Positions 7,985 through 50,282 of a stretch of 51,268 nucleotides of DNA are shown one piece after another (within the stretch, counting starts at the first letter, position 1; each line of letters begins with the position of its first letter). The stretch is taken from positions 1-51,268 of IMG/VR virus record IMGVR_UViG_3300011116_001156. One strand, 5' to 3'. A model generated the notes under the pieces. That model did not search any database and had not been told where the DNA came from. It saw nothing but the letters and a program-made list of their open reading frames with translations. The position numbers and the translations under genes are program-made. Source of the stretch: a virus.

Positions 7985-8002
7985 GGAATAACCATCCACT
8001 CC

Positions 8003-8022
8003 TCCCACCTTTGCAAAGCAAA
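8003..8022 (-). repeat. Dispersed 20-bp element, copy 1
   Basis: Read on the minus strand it is TTTGCTTTGCAAAGGTGGGA. It matches copies at 27557, 41342 and 49179 at 16 invariant positions of 20. It lies in the gap before the large terminase start. Confidence 0.8.
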
Positions 8023-9470: not shown

Positions 9471-11573
9471 ATGGCAGCTGATCCCGAACTCGCCTCGTTG
9501 ACCCTGAGCAACGATCCAATTGTCGCGGAGGCGACGAAGAGATTCCGTCGGTGCTCGGAGTGGGAAGCGACGGCAAGGCAGAACTTTCTGTCGGATTATA
9601 AGTTCGCTCATGGGGACTCGGATAATGGGTTCCAGTGGCCCAATCGTATCCGCAACAATCGGGACCTGGACGCGCGCCCCTGCCTGACGATGAATGTCGT
9701 TCGTCAGCACAACCTGCAGATCATTAACGAGGCGAAGCAGAATAAGTCTAGCGTGGCTTTCAAAGCGACTGGTGGCGGGGCGAGCAAGGACTCGGCGGAT
9801 ATGCTCCAGGCGATGTTCCGGAGGGAAGAGTATCTCTCGAATGCACAAACCGCGTATGAGACAGCTTGTGAGTTTCAAGTGGCTGGCGGCTGGGGCTGGT
9901 GGAGAGTTGTGCTGGAGTACGAGGACAACAAGACCTTCAACCAGGGCTTTCGGATTAAACGAGTCTGGGACCCGCTGAGCGTCTACATGGATATGGACTG
10001 TCAGGAGAAAGATTGCTCTGACGCCAGGTATGGGTTTGTCTTCGATCTAGTCCCGGATGAACAACTGGAGGAAGCCTATCCTGGGATGAAGGAGCTGATG
10101 ACCCAGGCACCGCTGGGCAGCGCGACCACTGATGACTCCTGGAACATCAAGGATCATACCAGGGTCTGCGAGTACTTCCGCAAAGTCCCGAAGAAGGACA
10201 AGCTGGTGAGCTTCATCAACCCGAATGATGGGCGGAGAGTCCAGTTGAAGAAGTCTGGTATGCCACCAGAAGTCTACAAAGAGGTTCGACTGCTGCCGCT
10301 GACCAAAGAGCGTGATATTGTGAATTGGGAAATCCAGTGGTATCTGATCGTCGGCCAACAGATTGTGGATGAGACAATCTTTCCTGGGAAGTACATTCCG
10401 CTAATCCGAGTGCTGGGGGAGGAAACCATCATCGAGGGGATCATGGACCGGAAGGGCCATACTCGCGGGATGAAAGACGCGCAGAGAATGTATAACTACA
10501 ACGCCTCAGCGCAGATTGAATTTGGTGCTCTGCAGAGCAAGACTCCCTGGATCGTCGCGGCGAAGGCGATTGAAGAGTATGAGTCGATGTGGAATAGCGC
10601 GAATACGGTCAATCACTCGGTGCTGGTGTGGAACCATATCTCTGACGATGGTGGAGATGGGAAAGTTCCACCTCCTCAGCGCGTCGAGCCCCCGACGGCA
10701 TCCCCTGCCTATGCCTCTGGAATGGAAACTGCTTTCAACCAGATGATGATGACCTCTGGGCAATGGCAGAACCAGATGGGCATGGGCGGGAATGAGAGAA
10801 CTGGCGTGGCCATCGAAAGACGCCAGGACCAGGGATACACCGCTGTTTATCATTTTCAGAACAACTATGCGGAAGCGCTGAGGTTCACGGGAAAAATCTA
10901 CCTGGACGTGTTCCCGATAATCTACGACCGGCCACGACTGCTCAAGCTTCAGCTTGACAATGGCGAGGACTTCGACCTGCAGCTCGACCCGAACGCGAAG
11001 AGCGCCTACCAACAGCAACTGGACAAGGACAACCAGATTATCTCGCGGGTGCTAAATCCGACTGTTGGGGAGCATGATGTGCAGGCGGATGTGGGACCGG
11101 CGTACGGGACGAGGAAGGAGCAGACGGTGCAGGCGATGACACTGTTGCTGACGCAGAGCAAGGAACTGTCTCCGATCATTGCGGACCTGTTGCTCTCTGC
11201 TATGGACTTCCCGGAGGCGAGCGAGGCCGCACGGAGGCTGAAACGGATGGTTCCCCCGCAGGCCCTGGGCTTCGGTCCGAGCCAGAAGGAGCAGGAACTG
11301 CAACAGCAAGTCGCGGCGTTGCAAGACGCGCTTACGAAGTCGCTGCAAAAGCAAGGCGAGCAGAAGATCAAGATGCTCAGCAAGGAAGAGCTGCGGGATG
11401 TACAGGTCTTCGACGCAGAGACAAAGCGGATGGTCGCGCTGAAGGACTACCTGGGGCTGAATCCAGAAGGTGTCAAGGCGCTGCTCAAGGACCTGGAGAT
11501 GCAGAGTCTCCAGACAAGTATTGTTCAAATCGCAAACAGCGAAGTCGGGCAAGGCTCGACTGGAGGGAGCTGA
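9471..11573 (+). CDS. Portal protein, P22-like
   Basis: A 700-residue protein that forms the dodecameric ring at the capsid vertex through which DNA is packed and ejected. Features of the P22-type portal family are the N-terminal RFRRCSEWEATARQNFLSDY region, GDSDNGFQWP, RPCLTMNVVRQHNLQIIN, GGWGWWRV, and the long C-terminal helical barrel after NERTGVAIERRQDQGY. The length is close to that of P22 gp1. ATG 9471 is preceded by GAGG at a good distance; a TTG 18 bases earlier also exists. It lies between large terminase and scaffold, the normal order for this head type. Confidence 0.93.
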   Translation: MAADPELASLTLSNDPIVAEATKRFRRCSEWEATARQNFLSDYKFAHGDSDNGFQWPNRIRNNRDLDARPCLTMNVVRQHNLQIINEAKQNKSSVAFKATGGGASKDSADMLQAMFRREEYLSNAQTAYETACEFQVAGGWGWWRVVLEYEDNKTFNQGFRIKRVWDPLSVYMDMDCQEKDCSDARYGFVFDLVPDEQLEEAYPGMKELMTQAPLGSATTDDSWNIKDHTRVCEYFRKVPKKDKLVSFINPNDGRRVQLKKSGMPPEVYKEVRLLPLTKERDIVNWEIQWYLIVGQQIVDETIFPGKYIPLIRVLGEETIIEGIMDRKGHTRGMKDAQRMYNYNASAQIEFGALQSKTPWIVAAKAIEEYESMWNSANTVNHSVLVWNHISDDGGDGKVPPPQRVEPPTASPAYASGMETAFNQMMMTSGQWQNQMGMGGNERTGVAIERRQDQGYTAVYHFQNNYAEALRFTGKIYLDVFPIIYDRPRLLKLQLDNGEDFDLQLDPNAKSAYQQQLDKDNQIISRVLNPTVGEHDVQADVGPAYGTRKEQTVQAMTLLLTQSKELSPIIADLLLSAMDFPEASEAARRLKRMVPPQALGFGPSQKEQELQQQVAALQDALTKSLQKQGEQKIKMLSKEELRDVQVFDAETKRMVALKDYLGLNPEGVKALLKDLEMQSLQTSIVQIANSEVGQGSTGGS

Positions 11574-23506: not shown

Positions 23507-25149
23507 TGCCACTTGACCCGACGATCTCCCTGGGGGTGAAGCCTCCCGCTGCTCCGACCAATCCGATGGAACTGCTCGGGTCAATTGGCGAGGTCCAGAA
23601 AAAGCTGACCGAGGCCCGCTTCATACAGGCCAAGTTCAAGGCCCAGCAACAAGCGGGGACGATCATCGCCGCTGCGCCGAGTCTGGCTGATGGCATTGCC
23701 GCTATTAACAAAGTCCCTGAAATCGCGATGTTTCCAGAGATTGCCAACTCAGTTGCAGAGGGTAGGGACTCACTGCTCGCTTGGCAAGGGAATGTCAGCA
23801 AGCAGGCAAATGATACAACTGGGAAGTTCTTGGACAGCATGGCTGGTGCTGTTGTTCACAAAGACTATGCTAAGGCTTCCGCTGACGCTTTGGTCAGCAC
23901 TATCATGAGTCCTGAGGTCAGGAAAGCAGCAATGGCATCAATAGATCGCTGGAACACCTACACCAACGATGGACTGTCTGGCGATCCTGCAAAAGACGAG
24001 CAAGAAAGACTGCAGAGAATTTCAGCGGTCGGTGTCGGTGCTGGTGCTATGGACACCATCGCGAAGCTGCATGGAACTTCCAGCCTTATTGATCGCGGGC
24101 CGGGGGTTCAGTCAGCTGTCACAAGTCCAACAATCCCGACTCGACTGGGTGGGACTCCTGGACAGACCAACTTCATTGGTTCTCTCATGCCGAAGGACTT
24201 GCCGCCTTCAGTTACTGACCCAAGAGGTATGCCAGTTAATACTGGTAGGCTTACTGGTGGTGGTAATGCACTGTCTCCTACGCCAGCAGCGAGTGCTGGT
24301 GCTAATCCTCTCGCGATGCCTTCGCCAAAGGCTGCCAAGAGTGCTGAATCTGTTACTGGCAATGAATTTTCCGCTGAAGACGCTGGTGATGGCACACCAC
24401 TGTATCCTAAAGGATACAAAATCCCTGCTGTCAAAGAACCTAAGAATATGTCTGGAGGCCCGGCCAATCCTCAGTCAGAACAGCGTTCTACCGACTTGAT
24501 GAAAAAGTTCACCGACTCGAAAGCCATGGAGCACGGTCAGGCGGCGCTGGGCAATCTTGCTGAGATGGACGCGAACTTTGACACGATGCAGAAAGAGGGC
24601 GGATTCTTGACTCCTGGTGCTGGCGGAGAGCAAAGACTGGCGATTGGTAAGATCATAAACGCTACATCAGCGGTGTTTGGTGGAGGCCCCGTTTTCGCGC
24701 CTACGGCTCTGGCAGCTGGTGAAGACGCGATGAAAGACACCCAGCGAATGGTTGGCTCGCTTGTCAACCAGATGTATGGCAATCAACGAGAAGCTGCTGA
24801 AACTATTAAAAACGCGACCTCTGCAGTCCCGACTATCAACAATACTTATCTGGGTGGTAAGCTGGTGACAGCTCTGCTCCGCGCTGCCACTCAGCGAAGC
24901 ATGGCTGAGTGGAAGTTTAATAACGAGTGGGCAGCAAAGCATCACGATGACCTTCGCGGAGCAGAGGCTGAGTTCGCGCGACTCCATCCAATGTCAAACT
25001 ACACCGATCCGGTGCTCAAAGGTTTTGGCATGACTCAGAATGGTTTTGAAAGCGCGAAAATGCTTCGCGAGCAAATGAACAAGGGTTTGCTTACCCCGGA
25101 GCAAGCGATGCAAATTGCCAAAGAAAAGAAGCTGAAGTTGGAGGATTAG
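23506..25149 (+). CDS. Large internal virion protein
   Basis: A 547-residue, helix-rich soluble protein. SLGVKPPAAPTNPMELLG at the start and the long Ala/Lys/Glu-rich region are typical of podovirus internal core proteins. The middle (about 200-310) is Pro/Gly/Ser-rich and likely flexible. I see no lytic transglycosylase or other enzyme motif. Such proteins are usually ejected to form a conduit across the periplasm. It is coupled to the gene before it by an ATGC overlap and lies 5 bases before the next start. Confidence 0.7.
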   Translation: MPLDPTISLGVKPPAAPTNPMELLGSIGEVQKKLTEARFIQAKFKAQQQAGTIIAAAPSLADGIAAINKVPEIAMFPEIANSVAEGRDSLLAWQGNVSKQANDTTGKFLDSMAGAVVHKDYAKASADALVSTIMSPEVRKAAMASIDRWNTYTNDGLSGDPAKDEQERLQRISAVGVGAGAMDTIAKLHGTSSLIDRGPGVQSAVTSPTIPTRLGGTPGQTNFIGSLMPKDLPPSVTDPRGMPVNTGRLTGGGNALSPTPAASAGANPLAMPSPKAAKSAESVTGNEFSAEDAGDGTPLYPKGYKIPAVKEPKNMSGGPANPQSEQRSTDLMKKFTDSKAMEHGQAALGNLAEMDANFDTMQKEGGFLTPGAGGEQRLAIGKIINATSAVFGGGPVFAPTALAAGEDAMKDTQRMVGSLVNQMYGNQREAAETIKNATSAVPTINNTYLGGKLVTALLRAATQRSMAEWKFNNEWAAKHHDDLRGAEAEFARLHPMSNYTDPVLKGFGMTQNGFESAKMLREQMNKGLLTPEQAMQIAKEKKLKLED

Positions 25150-27539: not shown

Positions 27540-27751
27540 GCTGGGGCCTTGCGGGGTTTGTTCTGCAAAGGTGGGATCAGGGTGGGATTGGTTAGCACTC
27601 AAGGAGTGGCGGGTGTCGGTGTACCGGGGAAAGGGTGGTAGGGCATCACATGGCCATTATATGCCCCGTCCCTTACCACCCCTAGTACCTTCTTCCCGTC
27701 ATCACCCCCTACATATAGTGTCTCCCTCCCCACCTGTCAAGACACTCCCAC
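27443..27751. other. Convergent intergenic region
   Basis: Plus-strand structural genes end on the left and minus-strand genes end on the right. Apart from the possible small membrane gene, it holds one copy of the 20-bp element, a C-rich run (27661-27735) and an inverted repeat AGTGTCT/AGACACT (27717-27723 and 27740-27746) that might act as a terminator, though it lacks a T tract. Confidence 0.55.
27557..27576 (+). repeat. Dispersed 20-bp element, copy 2
   Basis: TTTGTTCTGCAAAGGTGGGA, followed by TCAGGG. The preceding GGGG is shared with the copy at 41342. Confidence 0.8.
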
Positions 27752-31782: not shown

Positions 31783-33336
31783 CTATCCGAGCATCGGGCG
31801 AGAGAATCCAGTAAGTCTAGTGCGAGTGTCAGGGCGGCCAAGTTTCCATTTGAGCAGTCCCTCGGGATTTGGCCGGGACTGCTTGCGAGTCCCGCGATCT
31901 TGCCGAGGAGGCTCAACTGCGACTGCCGGTCCCCAGTTCCAGCCAACTTTCGCTTCTCCTGGAACGACATACTTCCGTCCTTTGTGCTCGAGTTCCACTC
32001 GGATGAGCTGGAGGGCCTCGGAGATAATGTCGTCCTCGTTCTCAGTCTCGCGATACTGGAACGTGATTGAGTCATACGTTTGAGCGAGCAACTGGACGTG
32101 AGGCATTTTCTTCCAGACTCTCCAAAGGCCCAAGTTCATTCGGTCGGCAGTGGTACTCTGCGGGAGAAAGGCAATCGCCTCGCGAAGAGTCGTATCATCG
32201 CCCGGTCGCCCGAAGAAATGCCGCTCACGTCCAAACGGTGTAACCAGCTTATTAGTCGTTTGTAGTTGCTCGGCAATCCATTGCCAGTACCGGCTGTGTG
32301 CCGGGTACGCACAGGACTCTCCCTTGCAATAGCGTTGCTGGAACTCCTCAGCCACTTTGGGGGGAATTTTGAGACTCCGAGCCATGGTCCAGGCAGTGCC
32401 CATGTAGTTACTCAGATGCCCGCCACGTTTGGACATATCGCGATAACTGAACTCGCGATAGAACTGCCCGTCAGCGATCTCTCGGTCTTTCTTTGCATCG
32501 CCAGTCCAGCGAAGCTCGGGCCAGATGAGTCGGCAGTTGGTCGTGTGCAAATCGCCGCCTTCGCAGGCGTTCAGGAACTTCCAGTCGTTGAACAGCACTC
32601 CTTCAAACCATCCGACATCTCTGGCCTCTACCTGCTCCAAATCTATGACGCAGAGCTTGTATCCAGCATCTGCGACAAAAACGTAACGCAGCCACTGATT
32701 AATGTTCTGCGCATTGCCGCCTGTTCCGAAGGCGTTGGAAGAGCTGCTGGGGCGTCCAGTTTCAGTTCCAGCAATGTTATAGCTTGTCCTATATCGTCCA
32801 TCAGGGTCAATTTCAGTCTCAAAGACTTCGCGCTGCTTGGAGAGATCGCGAATGGTGAGGATGCAGGAAATGAATGGTCGGGCATAGAGATAGCGCTCCT
32901 CGAGCTTTTCTAGGGTTTCACGATTTGTGGAGAGCTTGCGTTCCCCCTTTTGGTTGATCCAGATTTCTGGCAGCTGGAGCGCGCGGTAGAAGAAGTCTTT
33001 GAGCTGTGCGGGAGAGCGAGGGTTGAGTCCTTTGCCCCAGACTGCCTGGGCATACTCGTTGAGGATGGAGTTGAGTTGGTCGATCCGGGCTCCAAGCTCC
33101 CGTGAAGCCACCTGGCGACCAAGCTGGTCCACAGCGAATCCACGTTGCATTATCTCCAGATAAGGGCCTTGCAGGGCGCGCTCGAATGAGTAGACTGGGG
33201 GCGGCTGGTTGAACAGTCGGTTCAGCTCCGAATGGACCTCGAAGGTGACACAGGTGTCCAATCCGCAGTAGACCTGGTGCTGGACCTCAGCTGACAGTTG
33301 GTGAGGCAACAAACTCTCTGTCTGAATGTACGGCAT
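31783..33336 (-). CDS. DNA polymerase A, polymerase subunit
   Basis: A 517-residue family A polymerase that lacks most of its exonuclease domain. Its first residues contain only the third exonuclease motif, Y23-C-G-L-D27. The polymerase motifs are motif A IDLEQVEARDVGW, a motif B-like region DMSKRGGHLSNYMGTAWTMA and motif C TYDSITFQY. Motif A replaces the usual DYSQIELR with DLEQVEAR, and motif C has YDS in place of HDE. The start overlaps the stop of the DUF7768-like gene (TAATG), beyond which lies the gene with exonuclease motifs I and II. The two chains probably assemble. Confidence 0.9.
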   Translation of the reverse strand: MPYIQTESLLPHQLSAEVQHQVYCGLDTCVTFEVHSELNRLFNQPPPVYSFERALQGPYLEIMQRGFAVDQLGRQVASRELGARIDQLNSILNEYAQAVWGKGLNPRSPAQLKDFFYRALQLPEIWINQKGERKLSTNRETLEKLEERYLYARPFISCILTIRDLSKQREVFETEIDPDGRYRTSYNIAGTETGRPSSSSNAFGTGGNAQNINQWLRYVFVADAGYKLCVIDLEQVEARDVGWFEGVLFNDWKFLNACEGGDLHTTNCRLIWPELRWTGDAKKDREIADGQFYREFSYRDMSKRGGHLSNYMGTAWTMARSLKIPPKVAEEFQQRYCKGESCAYPAHSRYWQWIAEQLQTTNKLVTPFGRERHFFGRPGDDTTLREAIAFLPQSTTADRMNLGLWRVWKKMPHVQLLAQTYDSITFQYRETENEDDIISEALQLIRVELEHKGRKYVVPGEAKVGWNWGPAVAVEPPRQDRGTRKQSRPNPEGLLKWKLGRPDTRTRLTGFSRPMLG

Positions 33337-33749
33337 TATACTCTCTCGAATACTTGTTCCCAGAGATAATCAAACATAGCCTTGTCCTTGGTCAGAGGCA
33401 GGCGAACAGCTCCGTCCAAGGCGCGGAGTTCAATCGGCCTGCTCTCGCGGATCGCTTGCTCCAGCGCTGCCACCATTCCCTTACTCCACCCTCGGTCAGT
33501 ATAAAACACCTGCAGTTCTGCTACCTTCCTCCAGGCCAACCCGGCGGCAATTCCAAGTTCCCTCTCACTAGCCTTACTATCATCCAGGACTCCCGATTGA
33601 GTATACAGCAAATGGCTAGCAATCGGTGCCTCGCCGAGAGCGAGACAATCTGCAAGCGCGCGTCTGGCGTAGGTAACATTAGCCTCGATCTCCCCGGCGT
33701 ATGGACTTTCTACAATGACTCGGCGCATAGTGGCTCTCCCTTCACTCAT
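33336..33749 (-). CDS. DUF7768-like (nucleoside deoxyribosyltransferase-fold) protein
   Basis: A 137-residue protein with RRVIVESPYAGEIEANVTYA, RRALADCLALGEAPIASHLL and LYTQSGVLDD near its start, and ELGIAAGLAWRKVAELQVFY later. This is the pattern of small phage proteins related to DUF4406 and nucleoside 2-deoxyribosyltransferases (now DUF7768, as I recall). A role in nucleotide metabolism is plausible. Its place is striking: it sits between two pieces of the DNA polymerase, overlapping both (8 bases upstream, TAATG downstream). An alternative start is at residue 8. Confidence 0.75.
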   Translation of the reverse strand: MSEGRATMRRVIVESPYAGEIEANVTYARRALADCLALGEAPIASHLLYTQSGVLDDSKASERELGIAAGLAWRKVAELQVFYTDRGWSKGMVAALEQAIRESRPIELRALDGAVRLPLTKDKAMFDYLWEQVFERV

Positions 33750-35064
33750 CTTTCTTCTCCGTGTCAGCCTTCCGTTTGCGCATCAACTTCCAGGAACTTT
33801 CGTTGGTATAGATACTGCCGAGAAAGCCTAGTCCCTTCTGCATCTCAGGGAAGATAGAATGGTGCAGCAGCATGGTATCGGCCAAGTTCTGTCTTGGCTG
33901 GATAGCATACTTTGTCAGATACTGCAGATCGTACACCCCGTTCTGCCAAATCTTGGGGATGGGGGACTCAAGCAGCACTGCTGTCGCGTTCCATGCCCGA
34001 CGCTCGGACTGGTGATCGGGCCAGAAGTTATACCCAGGCTTGCTCCGGTCCCAGAACGGGATGACCATCGCTTCGGACGGGGACCTCGCGAAGCCGATGC
34101 AGGTGATCTGGCCCTGCGCTGTCTCGATGTCAGGTGCCAGCCATTCGATCTTGCCTTTGGCGAAGAGCTGGAGCGTCTGGTCTGTCCACGACTCCATCTC
34201 CTCCAATGTCGGGGAGACGAGAATGGAACGGCTGGGACGGCGAATGTCGGGAAAGTCTGCCTCCCTATTCGCCTTCATCAAGTCCGCGACTACAATCGGT
34301 CTCCAGGCCCATTGGCGGAGGACTCCGCTGGGATGGTAGGTTGGGAGGACTTTGAAAGGCTGAATTCGTTCGGAAGTCTGATTCTGAGCGTATCCCCGAT
34401 CTTGGCTGGCCATTGAGTTCCTAGGGCAAACTCCGAGTCCTTTGTCCAGCACAGTTCCATTTTCTGCTCCAGAATTGCTACCGACTGCCGAGTTAACTCC
34501 TGCAACCGTAACATCTCTGGGCTCAACTGAACTCGTGATGGCTCCTCGAATGGAGCCGATATTCGTGGCACGGAGAAGAGCCCAGCACGCAGTATTTCCA
34601 AGGGCAACAACCAGGTTTGGTCGCCAATGGTTAAGCTCAGTCCAGAGCCGGTCAAGCTCAGGGAGGTAATCTCCTCGTAGATATTTTCCTCTAGCAAGCG
34701 GCGGAAACGTGCCCGCGAGTTGCGAGACTTCGGTTTTTTTCTCACAGAGTTCCTCCAGTTTATTTCCAGGTGGTCGGAAGGCGAGCACGTTTGTCATCGC
34801 GATGCCTGCGGCAGCAAGCCATTCCTCGCGGGGGCGAATCCAGGCCGCGCCGTAGGTGTGCTGGGTGCAGATTTCAGCATGAAGCTCCGGGGCAATGCTG
34901 GGCATGGCCTCTCCAAGCATTCGGAACAGCTCTTTGCCGCTTTCTCCAGCGAATGGCTTGTGGCACTGGTCTTCTGTCTCGCCCCAGGCATCACCGACTA
35001 GGACAATTCGCGGAGTCTGGCTTCCTGCTGTGGCGGCAAATGGCGGGCGTGCTTGGTGGATCAT
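33742..35064 (-). CDS. Uracil-DNA glycosylase fused to exonuclease part of DNA polymerase
   Basis: A 440-residue protein. Residues about 17-260 resemble family 4/5 uracil-DNA glycosylases: VLVGDAWGETED (22-32), KPFAGESGKEL (36-46), LVVALGNTA (151-159) and PTYHPSGVLR (241-250). About 60 low-complexity residues (about 176-236) interrupt the domain. Residues 309-440 are the start of a DnaQ-like exonuclease: D312-I-E314-T (motif I), N375-G-V-Y-D379 (motif II), DTMLLHHSIFPEMQKGLGFL. Motif III is in the separate polymerase gene. It would remove uracil and proofread. It starts at an ATGA overlap. Confidence 0.85.
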   Translation of the reverse strand: MIHQARPPFAATAGSQTPRIVLVGDAWGETEDQCHKPFAGESGKELFRMLGEAMPSIAPELHAEICTQHTYGAAWIRPREEWLAAAGIAMTNVLAFRPPGNKLEELCEKKTEVSQLAGTFPPLARGKYLRGDYLPELDRLWTELNHWRPNLVVALGNTACWALLRATNIGSIRGAITSSVEPRDVTVAGVNSAVGSNSGAENGTVLDKGLGVCPRNSMASQDRGYAQNQTSERIQPFKVLPTYHPSGVLRQWAWRPIVVADLMKANREADFPDIRRPSRSILVSPTLEEMESWTDQTLQLFAKGKIEWLAPDIETAQGQITCIGFARSPSEAMVIPFWDRSKPGYNFWPDHQSERRAWNATAVLLESPIPKIWQNGVYDLQYLTKYAIQPRQNLADTMLLHHSIFPEMQKGLGFLGSIYTNESSWKLMRKRKADTEKKDE

Positions 35065-35339
35065 TTGTCTGCCAACAGCATATGCGCATTCGAGCTGATG
35101 ATGCTGAGCTTCAGCTCTTCCAATGAAGTGACTGCTGCGGTGTAGACAATCTTCCCCCTCGTCCCGTTCATGTAGTTCCCCTGAGAGTCCAACCCGATGT
35201 AGATAATCCCAGCCATACGGCCAGACCGGGCTTCTTCCAGCAAAGTCTCCAGCACGTCGATCACATCTGGCTGAACTGGCAGTCCTGCCGCAGTTGCTGT
35301 ATGCTCGAACAACGGGACAACCTTTGGTCCCTCGCTCAC
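35061..35339 (-). CDS. Hypothetical phage protein
   Basis: A 92-residue soluble protein with VIDVLETLLEEARSGRMAGI, IYIGLDSQGN and a C-terminal helix. Small proteins with this LLEEARSG-x-x-x-GI motif are frequent in phage replication modules; no function is established that I know of. It begins with GTG overlapping the methyltransferase stop (GTGA) and ends in an ATGA overlap with the glycosylase gene, so all three are translated together. Confidence 0.7.
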   Translation of the reverse strand: MSEGPKVVPLFEHTATAAGLPVQPDVIDVLETLLEEARSGRMAGIIYIGLDSQGNYMNGTRGKIVYTAAVTSLEELKLSIISSNAHMLLADK

Positions 35340-36796
35340 AGCCCGAGGCTCCCACCGGTTCTCTCCGCTGCCCGTTTCATTCGGGCCTGCTTCAGCGCGA
35401 GCCGCGCCGGGTCCACATATTGTTTATCGATCTCCAGCCCGAGGACATGACTCGCCCCGAGACTTTCAGCCGCACGTAGACTCGCACCGCTGCCGCAGGT
35501 GGGGTCCAGCATAATGGTGGTGTCATCCACCAGCATTTCCATGAAGTGCCGCAGCATAGGTTCGGGTTTCGTGCTCGGGTGGAGTTTTTTATCCGTCGGA
35601 GCGGAGTAGGCATCGCCTTTGACTCGGGCGATGTTGCGGTTGCCCCTGGATGCCAGCAGACAGGCCTCGTATACATGGCGGGCTCCTCGCTTCGGGTCTG
35701 ATGCAATCCCAGCATTGTCATTTTTGAACCAAATGAGCGGAAACTTCGCGAATTGGAGACTCGGGGCAAGTTCGTTGAAAAGGGCGACAGTGTTGCTGAT
35801 AATTCGGTAGTCGGCGGAGAGCCAGAACATCATGTGGGCAGAGACAGACATCACTCGGTCGAGGTTGGTGCAGAGAGACTTGATGAGTGTCTGGTACACA
35901 TCCACGCTGTCTTTGTAACCTAGCTTGCCGTTCTGGCCCAGTTCCGCTCCCCGGCCCTGTGGGCCAGAGAACAACTCGACCCCGTACGGAAAGTCACAAT
36001 GGATAAAGTTAAACTTCGGGCCAGAGTACTGGGGTGCCCAGTCGAGGAAGGAGATGTTGAGAATTGACTCTGGGTCAGGTTTGGGCGCAGGCTTGGACTG
36101 GCGAATGACTGGCGGTGCGCGAAGCTCTGGAGGCAGGGGCTCGCCTAGCTTTTTCAACTCCACCGCCCGCGCCTGATCAGCCTCGCTCAGCCCGGTGGCC
36201 ACCTGCTCGGGCTCGGTCTCTGCCGGGATGTCCTCGCCAGAGAGTAGGGCCTCCAGCTCCGCTCCCGCGTTCCGGTTCTCCCGGCGCTTGAGCATGTTGT
36301 ACGCTTCCCTCGCGGTGCCTGCACTTGCAACTCGCTCGTTCTCCATCTCTTTATAAACCGAGATGAGCAAACTGACATGGCTGAGTTCCATCGCGCACTG
36401 GGCAGCGGTCTCACCCATGGTCCAGTCAGGGTCGAGTTGGAGCTGCAGCTTATGCATTCCCCCCACCGCTCGGACAGTGTCTTGCCAGCAGAGGTCTTCC
36501 CGATGGGCGTTCTCGACGAACTCGATTAGTTGCTGTTCGACGGGGGTGAGCTGACTGATCTTCCTGGCGAGGATTTTCTCCCAGCCGAGATTTCGGCAGG
36601 CGGTCAATCGACGCTCTCCAGCCTGAAGGATAAAATCATCCGAGATCAGAATGGGACTCAACAGCCCGTGCTGTGCGATTGACTTCTGCAGCCAGGCTAC
36701 CTCCAGGGCTTCCTTCCCCGGCTCGCGCTGGCGCTGGTCGCGGAGGACTTTAATCTTGCTGATCTCGATGAGAGAGACTGACTGCTGTAGCTTCAT
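35336..36796 (-). CDS. ParB-like domain fused to DNA methyltransferase
   Basis: A 486-residue fusion. Residues 1-115 are a ParB/Spo0J-like domain with QAGERRLTACRNLG (58-71) and the box ENAHRED (95-101). A helical linker follows, then an amino-methyltransferase with D268-F-P-Y-G, HPSTKPEPMLRHFM (406-419) and DPTCGSG (431-437). The catalytic motif before the cofactor motif indicates the beta class, methylating adenine N6 or cytosine N4. Phe in place of the first Pro of DPPY is unusual. The ParB part may give DNA binding. Its job could be protection from host restriction or marking the phage origin. Confidence 0.87.
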   Translation of the reverse strand: MKLQQSVSLIEISKIKVLRDQRQREPGKEALEVAWLQKSIAQHGLLSPILISDDFILQAGERRLTACRNLGWEKILARKISQLTPVEQQLIEFVENAHREDLCWQDTVRAVGGMHKLQLQLDPDWTMGETAAQCAMELSHVSLLISVYKEMENERVASAGTAREAYNMLKRRENRNAGAELEALLSGEDIPAETEPEQVATGLSEADQARAVELKKLGEPLPPELRAPPVIRQSKPAPKPDPESILNISFLDWAPQYSGPKFNFIHCDFPYGVELFSGPQGRGAELGQNGKLGYKDSVDVYQTLIKSLCTNLDRVMSVSAHMMFWLSADYRIISNTVALFNELAPSLQFAKFPLIWFKNDNAGIASDPKRGARHVYEACLLASRGNRNIARVKGDAYSAPTDKKLHPSTKPEPMLRHFMEMLVDDTTIMLDPTCGSGASLRAAESLGASHVLGLEIDKQYVDPARLALKQARMKRAAERTGGSLGL

Positions 36797-36887
36797 GGAC
36801 TGGTGTCCCCCAGAATGGCGATGGTGATGGAAAGTGTCTGGGGAGGGAGGCATGGTTCCCTCCCCAGATTGGTCAGCAGAATGGAGG

Positions 36888-41176: not shown

Positions 41177-41386
41177 GGTGAAGGCTTCCTGTGCATGGCC
41201 CGTTATCGTAACGGGGGAAGATGGGAGATTGTAATGGAGGCTGTGGGTTGAGGGAAGGAATTGTTCCGTGGGTCGGATGATGGTATGCCCTACCGTGGGA
41301 CGAGGGAAGGCAAGGGAATGGTCAGCTGGGAATGACGGGGGTTTGTTGTGCAAACGTGGGACGAGGGGACCGTTCCGGTCCCATTC
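41177..41386. promoter_or_regulatory. Intergenic control region within the minus-strand operon
   Basis: This 210-bp gap holds a perfect hairpin CCCGTTA/TAACGGG (41199-41215), a second hairpin GGGACC/GGTCCC (41366-41382 region), one copy of the 20-bp element and two GTGGGACGAGGG cores (41295 and 41356). It is the largest gap inside the minus-strand operon and may hold an internal promoter or terminator. Confidence 0.5.
41342..41361 (+). repeat. Dispersed 20-bp element, copy 3
   Basis: TTTGTTGTGCAAACGTGGGA, continued by CGAGGG as in the copy at 49179. A shortened form (TATGCCCTACC then GTGGGACGAGGG) lies 61 bases to the left. Confidence 0.8.
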
Positions 41387-47783: not shown

Positions 47784-48440
47784 TTATTCAAACGAATCTA
47801 GCTGGCTATTCGCGTCAATCTGCTGTGCATCTGCCATTGCCTCTTGCTCTACAACTGTCAACGGCTCGGCCAGCTGGGCTTCCACCTTCATCCTTGCCCG
47901 TTGCTGCTGGTCAAATCTCTCTGCCGCGTCAATGGACTCCTGGGAGATAAATCGCGGGGCGGAGAGATCAGGGGATGGCGAGAATGGCTGGTGGGAATGG
48001 CTGGCTGGCGCTGGTAAATGGACTGCTGTTCCTGCTGTCGCACTAATGTCTGGTGTGATGTTCAGTGCCGCTGTTCCTGCTCCGTGGCCTCCCTTCCAGC
48101 CGTGGTCCCCTCCCTTTCCCCGATCTGGGGTTGGCAGTCCCATCGCAGCGTTTACGCGATTCTCGCGCAGTTTCTGTTTCTTCCGATCATTCCGCCTGCG
48201 TTCCTTCGCGAAGTGCTTCACTTCGAGTCTAATGACTGATGGCGAGTCGTATGGGAACTGGAGCAAGAACTCTGGTCGCGCGTTGAGGGCGAGAGACTGA
48301 ATCGCGGTGGATGGGTCGAGCTGGCCAGTGAGAACTAAGTCTCTGGTGTTCTGGATTGTTTGAAAGAACCTCTCAAATGTGGTCTGGTAATCCTGCGCTG
48401 CGGCAAGCAGAGACAACATTCTGTCCTGAGTAATCGGCAT
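47784..48440 (-). CDS. Hypothetical protein with basic helix
   Basis: A 218-residue protein. The N-terminal helical part (LSLLAAAQDYQTTFERFFQT) is followed by a strongly basic stretch (KHFAKERRRNDRKKQKLREN) and a long Gly/His/Pro-rich flexible region, then a final helix (FDQQQRARMKVEAQLAEPLT). The basic stretch could bind nucleic acid. It is one of the first genes of the minus-strand operon, where early regulators are often found. No family recognised. Confidence 0.68.
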   Translation of the reverse strand: MPITQDRMLSLLAAAQDYQTTFERFFQTIQNTRDLVLTGQLDPSTAIQSLALNARPEFLLQFPYDSPSVIRLEVKHFAKERRRNDRKKQKLRENRVNAAMGLPTPDRGKGGDHGWKGGHGAGTAALNITPDISATAGTAVHLPAPASHSHQPFSPSPDLSAPRFISQESIDAAERFDQQQRARMKVEAQLAEPLTVVEQEAMADAQQIDANSQLDSFE

Positions 48441-48445
48441 GATGG

Positions 48446-48826
48446 CTAATCCTCGAATGAGAGCAAATGTGCTAGCAAGGACTCGGCGGACTGTGGAGAG
48501 TCTGGTGGGGGAGATTTTGGCTTATGAGACTGCAATGGACTGGACTGGACTGGCTGGTGTTGCCCCCATTCAGTTGGATTGTAATGCTGTTCCAGGGGCA
48601 ATGGCAGACCGACTGCTTCGCCCCAGAAATCTCCGAGCGGTCTGTGATAGCGTCTGTACTGCTCTAGGTCTTTCTTCCCCTTGAGTCTCTTACAAAAGCA
48701 GCAGCAAGGGATCGGGCCGAGGTCTGGAGTGGTGATCCAGTCTGTCGCGGGCTGGAGGCCGTCAAACCAGCACCAACCTCTGGTAAGCCAAAGGAGGTGG
48801 GTGCGGGAGACTGGAGGGGTGGGCAT
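48446..48826 (-). CDS. First gene of the minus-strand operon, Cys-rich hypothetical
   Basis: A 126-residue protein. I chose ATG 48826 because AGGAG lies 9 bases upstream. TRGWCWFDGLQPATDW and CCCFCKRLKGKKD, with four cysteines close together, suggest a metal site; the C-terminus is Pro/Ser-rich. Its place directly after the divergent control region suggests an early function such as host takeover. No family recognised. Confidence 0.65.
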   Translation of the reverse strand: MPTPPVSRTHLLWLTRGWCWFDGLQPATDWITTPDLGPIPCCCFCKRLKGKKDLEQYRRYHRPLGDFWGEAVGLPLPLEQHYNPTEWGQHQPVQSSPLQSHKPKSPPPDSPQSAESLLAHLLSFED

Positions 48827-48875
48827 GGTATGGGGCTCCTGAGGAGTTGGTGGCGCGCGGGGGATATGGGTGGGG

Positions 48876-48881
48876 ATTATA
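48876..48881 (-). promoter_or_regulatory. Minus-strand -10 box
   Basis: TATAAT on the minus strand, 50 bases before the start of the first minus-strand gene. The -35 box at the right distance is poor (TATACA), so an activator may be needed; the inverted repeat arm covers that site. Confidence 0.4.
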
Positions 48882-48890
48882 ATGGATTGA

Positions 48891-48918
48891 GGCACGGTTG
48901 TATACCGGGGGCGGCATA
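48891..48918 (-). repeat. Left arm of outward-facing inverted repeat
   Basis: On the minus strand it reads TATGCCGCCCCCGGTA, four bases, then ACCGTGCC. The right arm at 49056-49083 has the same 24 bases in the opposite direction with a different four-base spacer. Confidence 0.92.
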
Positions 48919-48930
48919 GAGTTATGCTCC

Positions 48931-48942
48931 GTGGGACGAGGG
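48931..48942 (+). repeat. GTGGGACGAGGG core
   Basis: The 12-mer also occurs at 41295, 41356 and 49193. It lacks the left half of the full 20-bp element and is preceded by TATGCTCC, like the copy at 41295 (TATGCCCTACC). Confidence 0.75.
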
Positions 48943-48969
48943 GGTGCCCATGCTTTTCTGTACTGTCTT

Positions 48970-48981
48970 AAAAAAAAAAAA
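48970..48981. repeat. A12 tract
   Basis: Twelve consecutive A residues followed by TTTGAG and a purine-rich run. It is the longest homopolymer in the window and a likely site of bending or easy melting. Its exact length is open to sequencing error. Confidence 0.8.
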
Positions 48982-49000
48982 TTTGAGTAAGAAAAAGAGA

Positions 49001-49140
49001 AGACTGCAACACAGTGCTGGGGAGGGACAAGACTGCACCCCTGGGTGTAAATACATATGCCGCCCCCGGTACGTTACCGTGCCACGAGACTGCAGAATGG
49101 CCTGGAACAAGACTGCAAGAGGGCAAGACTGCAGACTGCA
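49001..49140 (+). repeat. Six AGACTGCA direct repeats (iteron-like)
   Basis: AGACTGCA starts at 49001, 49030, 49087, 49110, 49126 and 49133, all on the plus strand. The last two overlap by one base. A further copy lies at 50350, just before an early gene. They resemble binding sites for a replication initiator. Confidence 0.75.
49056..49083 (+). repeat. Right arm of outward-facing inverted repeat
   Basis: TATGCCGCCCCCGGTA (49056-49071), CGTT, ACCGTGCC (49076-49083). It mirrors 48918-48891. The arms are 137 bp apart and both point outward to the genes they precede. Confidence 0.92.
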
Positions 49141-49178
49141 GCCACATCATTCCATTCCCCAGCTGGGGGATTGGTCAC

Positions 49179-49198
49179 TTTGCCTTGCAAAGGTGGGA
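49179..49198 (+). repeat. Dispersed 20-bp element, copy 4
   Basis: TTTGCCTTGCAAAGGTGGGA, continued by CGAGGG. A degenerate copy, TTTGCACTGCAAACTGGAC, follows at 49214. Confidence 0.8.
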
Positions 49199-49300
49199 CG
49201 AGGGACCATTCCCTTTGCACTGCAAACTGGACTGCAGTGGCTTGCGTCAGGGAGAAAGGTGATACGTGAATAATGCAATGGTGATATATGGGATTGTTGG

Positions 49301-49306
49301 TACAAT
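49301..49306 (+). promoter_or_regulatory. Possible -10 box of first early gene
   Basis: TACAAT lies 40 bases ahead of the early gene at 49346. No good -35 box is at the standard distance (GCAATG or ATGGTG), so the call is weak. Confidence 0.3.
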
Positions 49307-49345
49307 GGCCGGGTGGCAATGACGCCACATATAAGGAGTCGCAAA

Positions 49346-49587: not shown

Positions 49588-49661
49588 GTCTTTGCGAGTC
49601 GGGAATGGTTCCCGATTGTGCCGGGGGAAATCCCCCATACCATGTAAAAGGAAGTTCTACC

Positions 49662-50282
49662 ATGTCGGAAGCCACCAATCCCCTTTCCATTCAATATGGC
49701 GATATCGTGTTAGACTTCGCGACGTTGCCGCAATCATCGTTGACGGCGATGCTTCGTCGTGGGGTGTCGCATTATTTCGGAAGTGAACAGGCATCGAAAG
49801 TCACCGGCCAATTCAAGGTCGATGCCGAAGGAAATAAAAAGACCGATCTCCAAGACACCGCCGAAAACCGTGCGACCATGTTGTCCGAATATCAGGCGAA
49901 GGCGCACGATGCGCTTTTGGCCGGGACCGTCGGCGTGTCGGTACGCGGACCTACCCTTGATCCAATCGCGACCATTGTGGCACGACTCGCCAAAGCCGAA
50001 ATCAAAACTATCCTTGCGAAAAATGGCGTGAAGTTCCCGGCGAAGGCGGAAGACACGATCGAAATGCCTGATGGTTCCAAGGTCACGGGTGCCCAATTGG
50101 TCGCGCGCCGACTCGACCCGACACTTGCATCCGGCGTTGACGCCAAGGGCGCATATGGCCCGGTTGGTATGACTCACACCGACCGCCTTACCAAGGAAGC
50201 GAAAAAGATTGCCGATGATCAGGCAAAGAAGGCAAAGAAGGCCGAAGATGCCGCGAAGGAAGATGGTCTTTCCGGCCTTTAA
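49662..50282 (+). CDS. Early protein of unknown function
   Basis: A 206-residue protein, the largest in the early region. It starts at ATG 49662 with AAGGAAG upstream. The N-terminal part (NPLSIQYGDIVLDFATLPQS, LTAMLRRGVSHYFG) and the middle (AEDTIEMPDGSKVTGAQLVA) are globular. The C-terminus (AKKIADDQAKKAKKAEDAAK) is a Lys/Ala coil. It is abundant-looking in codon use and has its own promoter. A DNA-binding or structural role is possible. No family recognised. Confidence 0.75.
   Translation: MSEATNPLSIQYGDIVLDFATLPQSSLTAMLRRGVSHYFGSEQASKVTGQFKVDAEGNKKTDLQDTAENRATMLSEYQAKAHDALLAGTVGVSVRGPTLDPIATIVARLAKAEIKTILAKNGVKFPAKAEDTIEMPDGSKVTGAQLVARRLDPTLASGVDAKGAYGPVGMTHTDRLTKEAKKIADDQAKKAKKAEDAAKEDGLSGL

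Follow-up and report, generated by a model that had tools for sequence, protein, structure and literature searches.

A putative podovirus replication origin with iterons, an AT-rich core and paired inverted arms at the early/late gene boundary

The primary origin of phage T7 consists of a promoter and an AT-rich stretch, and the phage has a family-A polymerase and a primase-like protein. In phage lambda, iterons adjoin an AT-rich region and an activating early promoter (PMC5043065; PMC7466680), and the iterons of plasmids are generally helically phased (PMC5043065). The element described here is intergenic and lies at the early/late gene boundary of an IMG/VR virus record (IMGVR_UViG_3300011116_001156, positions 1 to 51,268; this whole stretch of 51,268 nt is referred to as the window). 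It resembles the lambda origin in having repeats that adjoin an A+T-rich region with an early promoter nearby, but in lambda the iterons lie within the O gene and are near-perfect inverted repeats of 19 bp, whereas the repeats here are direct octamers, intergenic and arranged around two outward arms; the element is not embedded in an O-like initiator gene, and the window proteins yielded no O/P homologue. As in the iteron plasmid origins of RK2, P1 and R6K, short direct repeats stand beside an A+T-rich region, although their spacing is irregular here and neither a Rep family nor a DnaA box was found. The promoter, the AT-rich stretch, the family-A polymerase and the primase-like protein all recall the T7 primary origin, which differs in that it is not known to have iterons or paired arms, and no phage RNA polymerase was identified in the window. 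Finally, the isolated Caulobacter phage Kuura (OQ067476) has related replication genes, an A12 as its only long A/T run and 30-nt arms at the same distance, but its arm and repeat sequences differ and its genome end has been mapped within the element.

The ends of the window share a 127-nt repeat, and for this reason it is read as a closed podovirus genome of 51,141 bp. Late genes (TerL, P22-like portal, coat, head closure, ejection) point rightwards from the element, and leftwards of it are the early and replication genes, encoding a UvrD-like helicase, an exonuclease, Sak4, a ParB-methylase fusion, a UDG-exonuclease, a family-A polymerase, a DUF3987 primase-like protein and ribonucleotide reductase. 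The polymerase is split (31783-35355): one protein combines a UDG with a 3'-5' exonuclease (33742-35355), a second is a DUF7768 protein (33336-33749), and the polymerase domain is separate (31783-33336). At 35336-36853 a ParB N-domain is fused to an N6/N4 DNA methylase. Beside the element on the replication side lies a 218-aa gene (47784..48440, minus strand) of the M-x-I-T-Q-x-R-M family, whose product is helical with a basic second helix (the predicted model is helical, with a mean pLDDT of 70.8). On the other side is a 206-aa early gene (49662..50282, plus strand; 225 aa if read from its first start at 49605), which has conserved counterparts in about a dozen relatives, mostly across the element from the replication side; the fold of the 225-aa protein gave no structural match. 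Scans that used the protein of each flanking gene by itself returned no matches, and none were found in a search for DNA similarity to phage records or in a host search of bacterial genomes via polA.

A sequence-only reading of this DNA had described outward 28-nt arms with all 24 specified bases equal, an A12 tract between them and six AGACTGCA repeats. All three are present, and both the arms and the repeats exceed chance. The left arm (GGCACGGTTGTATACCGGGGGCGGCATA, 48891..48918, minus strand) and the right arm (TATGCCGCCCCCGGTACGTTACCGTGCC, 49056..49083, plus strand) have 24 matches over 28 nt, with the four mismatches falling exactly on the N4; no inverted repeat in the genome scores higher than theirs, at 20 (the runner-up scores 14), and none of 60 random genomes attained that score. 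The AT-rich core between them (48966..48998, plus strand), a proposed unwinding element, contains the A12 at 48970-48981, which is the longest A/T run of the genome and its sole A/T run of at least 9 nt, and AT content there reaches the genome maximum (most AT-rich 40-mer region; rank fraction 0.0002). The six iterons, all on the plus strand, occupy 49001..49008, 49030..49037, 49087..49094, 49110..49117, 49126..49133 and 49133..49140, the last two having one base in common; spacings of 29, 57, 23, 16 and 7 show no helical phasing. There are nine copies of AGACTGCA genome-wide, again all on the plus strand, the other three being at 24007, 48527 and 50350, so that eight of the nine are within 1.5 kb of the centre. 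No other non-homopolymer octamer exceeds four copies per 160 nt anywhere in the genome, nor did the octamer maximum ever exceed four in 20 random genomes matched in dinucleotide composition. An Rfam search gave no match.

Several other motifs were seen in passing. A dispersed palindromic motif, TTTGYNNTGCAAA(G/C)G, occurs at 7999-8022 (minus), 27557-27580 (plus), 41342-41365 (plus), 49179-49202 (plus) and 49211-49225 (minus), in or near intergenic places and followed by GTGGGA at four of the five, and it looks like a phage regulator site. GTGGGACGAG lies at -56 from the dyad centre in the window and at -59 in G018, and a 20-nt repeat, GCGAGCAAGGACTCGGCGGA, is found with 19 of 20 bases identical at 9780-9799 and 48471-48490, 38.7 kb apart.

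We think it rather likely, judging from the sequence, that the region is the replication origin of the phage, of the theta type with iterons and an AT-rich unwinding element. Such origins have an unwinding element of about 20-40 bp, for which the AT content at the A12 provides a putative counterpart, and multiple adjoining repeats, here the six AGACTGCA copies within 160 nt as putative initiator sites. A phage-encoded initiator would bind the iterons, the paired arms or both, and once bound might bend the DNA and open the A-tract; negative supercoiling could come, as in phage lambda, from transcription that starts at the early promoter alongside, and the phage primase/DUF3987 protein and the family-A polymerase would then start forks. 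By its position and basic residues, the 218-aa helical protein encoded beside the element is our leading guess for the reader of the arms or iterons. Against an origin stand the absence of AGACTGCA from most relatives, its distance of 1.7 kb from the A-tract in G004, its unphased spacing, the lack of any known initiator family (Rep/O/DnaA-like) among the window proteins tested and the lack of DnaA boxes, no exact TTATNCACA being present up to 700 nt away from any of the 25 sites scanned.

One argument comes from relatives, which were found via the 225-aa gene to the right; their intergenic regions were compared and whole records then scanned, with one scoring scheme throughout and with most of the relatives being metagenome contigs. 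Most of these intergenic regions have an A or T tract at the same place, usually the only one that long, sitting inside inverted repeats whose sequence differs from phage to phage. The layout of AT-rich core, inverted arms and early/late boundary is present in 18 of 24 related records and in the cultured Kuura. In 14 genomes (G000, G006, G011, G018, G019, G022, G023, G025, G027, G028, G031, G032, G033 and G040) the strongest inverted repeat encloses the extreme AT-rich stretch, and in G004, G007, G010, G013 and Kuura an A/T tract has weaker arms; the cores of G011, G019, G033 and L135 are AT-rich without a homopolymer. Seven of a first set of 12 had their strongest inverted repeat on the extreme AT peak, and G018 was added by circular re-joining. 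In a second set, which had no part in forming the idea, G023, G040, G025, G027, G028 and G031 were positive, and the element was not found in the other six records, which are probably incomplete since they are only 28-47 kb long. The inverted-repeat score at each genome's longest A/T run, a prespecified comparison over 17 genomes, gave a Fisher p of 7e-14 with G019, G025 and Tiera, whose longest run is elsewhere, counted against the layout. A/T runs of at least 9 nt number 13 in 1.6 Mb of related DNA, and 10 of them are at the element. Inner arm edges are mostly 50-100 nt from the centre. The 218-aa family is on the replication side of the element in all 18 related element-bearing records and is usually the nearest conserved gene on that side, within about 0.7 kb, the exceptions being G004, G006, G019, G031 and G033, where its start is 1.1-3.3 kb away. 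No match to either the 218-aa or the 225-aa family was found in Kuura. In the two cultured phages, Kuura (L246:43208-43450) and Tiera (L250:43900-44120), tandem duplications of about 75 nt are present on the late-gene side of the core.

What recurs is not the arm sequence. The exact arm pattern of the window had no match in viral contigs, and the close relatives G027 and G028 have the same core, including TTGACATTCGATTTTTAAAAAAAAATATATA, but unrelated arms, each arm matching its partner; the conserved feature, as far as sequence comparison can tell, is therefore the pairing of the arms. The expectation that the arms would be conserved in related phages thus holds for their layout and fails for their sequence. 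The iterons are similarly uneven: AGACTGCA is near the centre in G022 (five of seven copies, as CAGACTGCACACC) and G040 (five of five), adjoining the A-tract in both, and four copies are found near the left-operon start of G004, 1.7 kb from the tract. When 2.9 million viral contigs were scanned, without regard to homology, for three spaced AGACTGCA, 11 non-periodic matches emerged, three of which are these same relatives; 62 of 73 triple matches were set aside, their spacings being divisible by three in the manner of repetitive coding sequence. A perfect hairpin, TTTTGGAGTAAACC-AAA-GGTTTACTCCAAAA, lies between two CAGACTGCACACC repeats of G022 (L169:19861-19891), and the last 400 nt of the reverse strand of L195, an unrelated AT-rich phage fragment without polA homology, contain five copies of AAGACTGCA.

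Strand composition adds a further, indirect line of evidence. When 300 nt at the site were masked, 13 of 18 genomes had their AT-skew minimum no farther from it than 2.5% of genome length, against about 1 of 18 for random placement, the site positions having been set by hand from earlier results. The AT skew keeps its sign, whereas the GC skew has an extremum near the site in many genomes but of either sign, and a simple GC-skew minimum was rejected as a marker, its sign flipping between relatives. The predicted skew change is thus borne out for AT skew, which switches at the site, but not for GC skew, whose minimum in the window is 2.9 kb away and whose sign is opposite in several relatives. 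Because the gene-strand switch coincides with the site in all genomes, skew does not separate replication from transcription. The origin that the sequence-only reading proposed accordingly draws indirect support from recurrence, from linkage to the replication module (below), from the AT-skew minimum and from AGACTGCA in three relatives, and loses some to the unconserved arms and the displaced GC-skew minimum. From the same layout with differing arms in about twenty related phages, DNA copying probably starts there.

An unlikely alternative is that the region is regulatory only, with no origin, the arms being paired operators through which a single repressor or activator would control divergent early promoters and the A-tract a bend or UP-like element. 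A predicted sigma-70 promoter, TATACA-N17-TATAAT (48876..48904, minus strand), reads towards the replication genes, its -35 region overlapped by the left arm; its score exceeds the 99.99th percentile of the genome-wide background, and it belongs with the genome's best promoter-like sites. The 149-aa ORF at 48446-48895 would have to use a start codon within the leftward transcript, the ATG at 48826 being one option. In G006, G013 and G032, too, the replication-side arm is overlapped by, or close to, a strong outward sigma-70 promoter, and sequences on that side include TTGACA-N17-TACAAT in G032 and G040 and TTGACA-N17-TAGTCT in G006. The arms of G027 and G028 change as a pair, like operators of different immunity groups, and the right arm of the window has an internal dyad, CGGTA-CGT-TACCG. 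Yet the second arm has no consistent promoter, and outward sigma-70 promoters at both arms, as at OL/OR, were not seen: a scan for the sigma-70 type found none comparable from the right arm of the window, so that of the suggested two-way early promoter the leftward half is supported, and the arms were rejected as two mirror-image promoters. Moreover, in G004 and L133 the 225-aa gene stands between the element and the divergent start region; many arms, at 50-90 nt, are above the usual operator length; internal palindromes are generally not significant and are not supported as a general arm property; and operators leave the AT-rich core unexplained.

At the T7 concatemer junction, a hairpin or terminase-site role has been proposed. 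By analogy, the element might be a genome-end or concatemer-processing site at which the inverted repeat, as a hairpin or as a site recognised by terminase, determines the packaged end, which we consider quite improbable. The window strand folds unusually well (z=-5), and the arms have the length, the imperfections and the freedom of sequence that a need for base-pairing would allow. Kuura has 606-bp direct terminal repeats, mapped by PhageTerm (PMC9959647), and the start of its terminal repeat falls between the core and the right arm, 61 nt from the centre of the A-tract. This fits a packaging role and so counts against an origin, although it could also reflect an origin and an end sharing the early/late boundary. 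However, a hairpin would need neither direct repeats nor an AT-rich core, and the genes themselves point the other way. Kuura shares polA (39%), primase (32%), exonuclease (36%), Sak4 (30%) and UDG-exonuclease (34%) with the window, none of its TerL, portal or coat (MCP) proteins matches, and it has both the A12 and the arms; PAE2 and phiAX1 have TerL, portal and MCP in common with the window but no replication gene, and neither an A/T tract of at least 9 nt nor an inverted repeat at the AT peak was found in them. The comparison, which rests on three phages, points to an element that goes with the replication genes and not with the packaging genes, and it favours an origin over a genome-end site. 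Homopolymers and inverted repeats can break assemblies, and the G018 contig ends at its A23, but a chance arrangement or assembly artefact around an intergenic homopolymer is barely credible for an element carried by about 20 records, a cultured isolate among them, and with the Fisher result given above.

Returning to the origin, it is tempting to speculate, as a doubtful but real possibility, that these phages represent an origin class in which close relatives swap the two arms together as a matched pair but keep the core and inner repeats, so that specificity would switch as phage immunity does, read by the new helical 218-aa family. Why the arms change as a pair is a puzzle that the comparison raises, and Kuura offers a cultured test system for the element. 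Few origins are known for podoviruses seen only in metagenomes, and a layout recognisable even where sequences are dissimilar would allow origins to be called across a large uncultured group.
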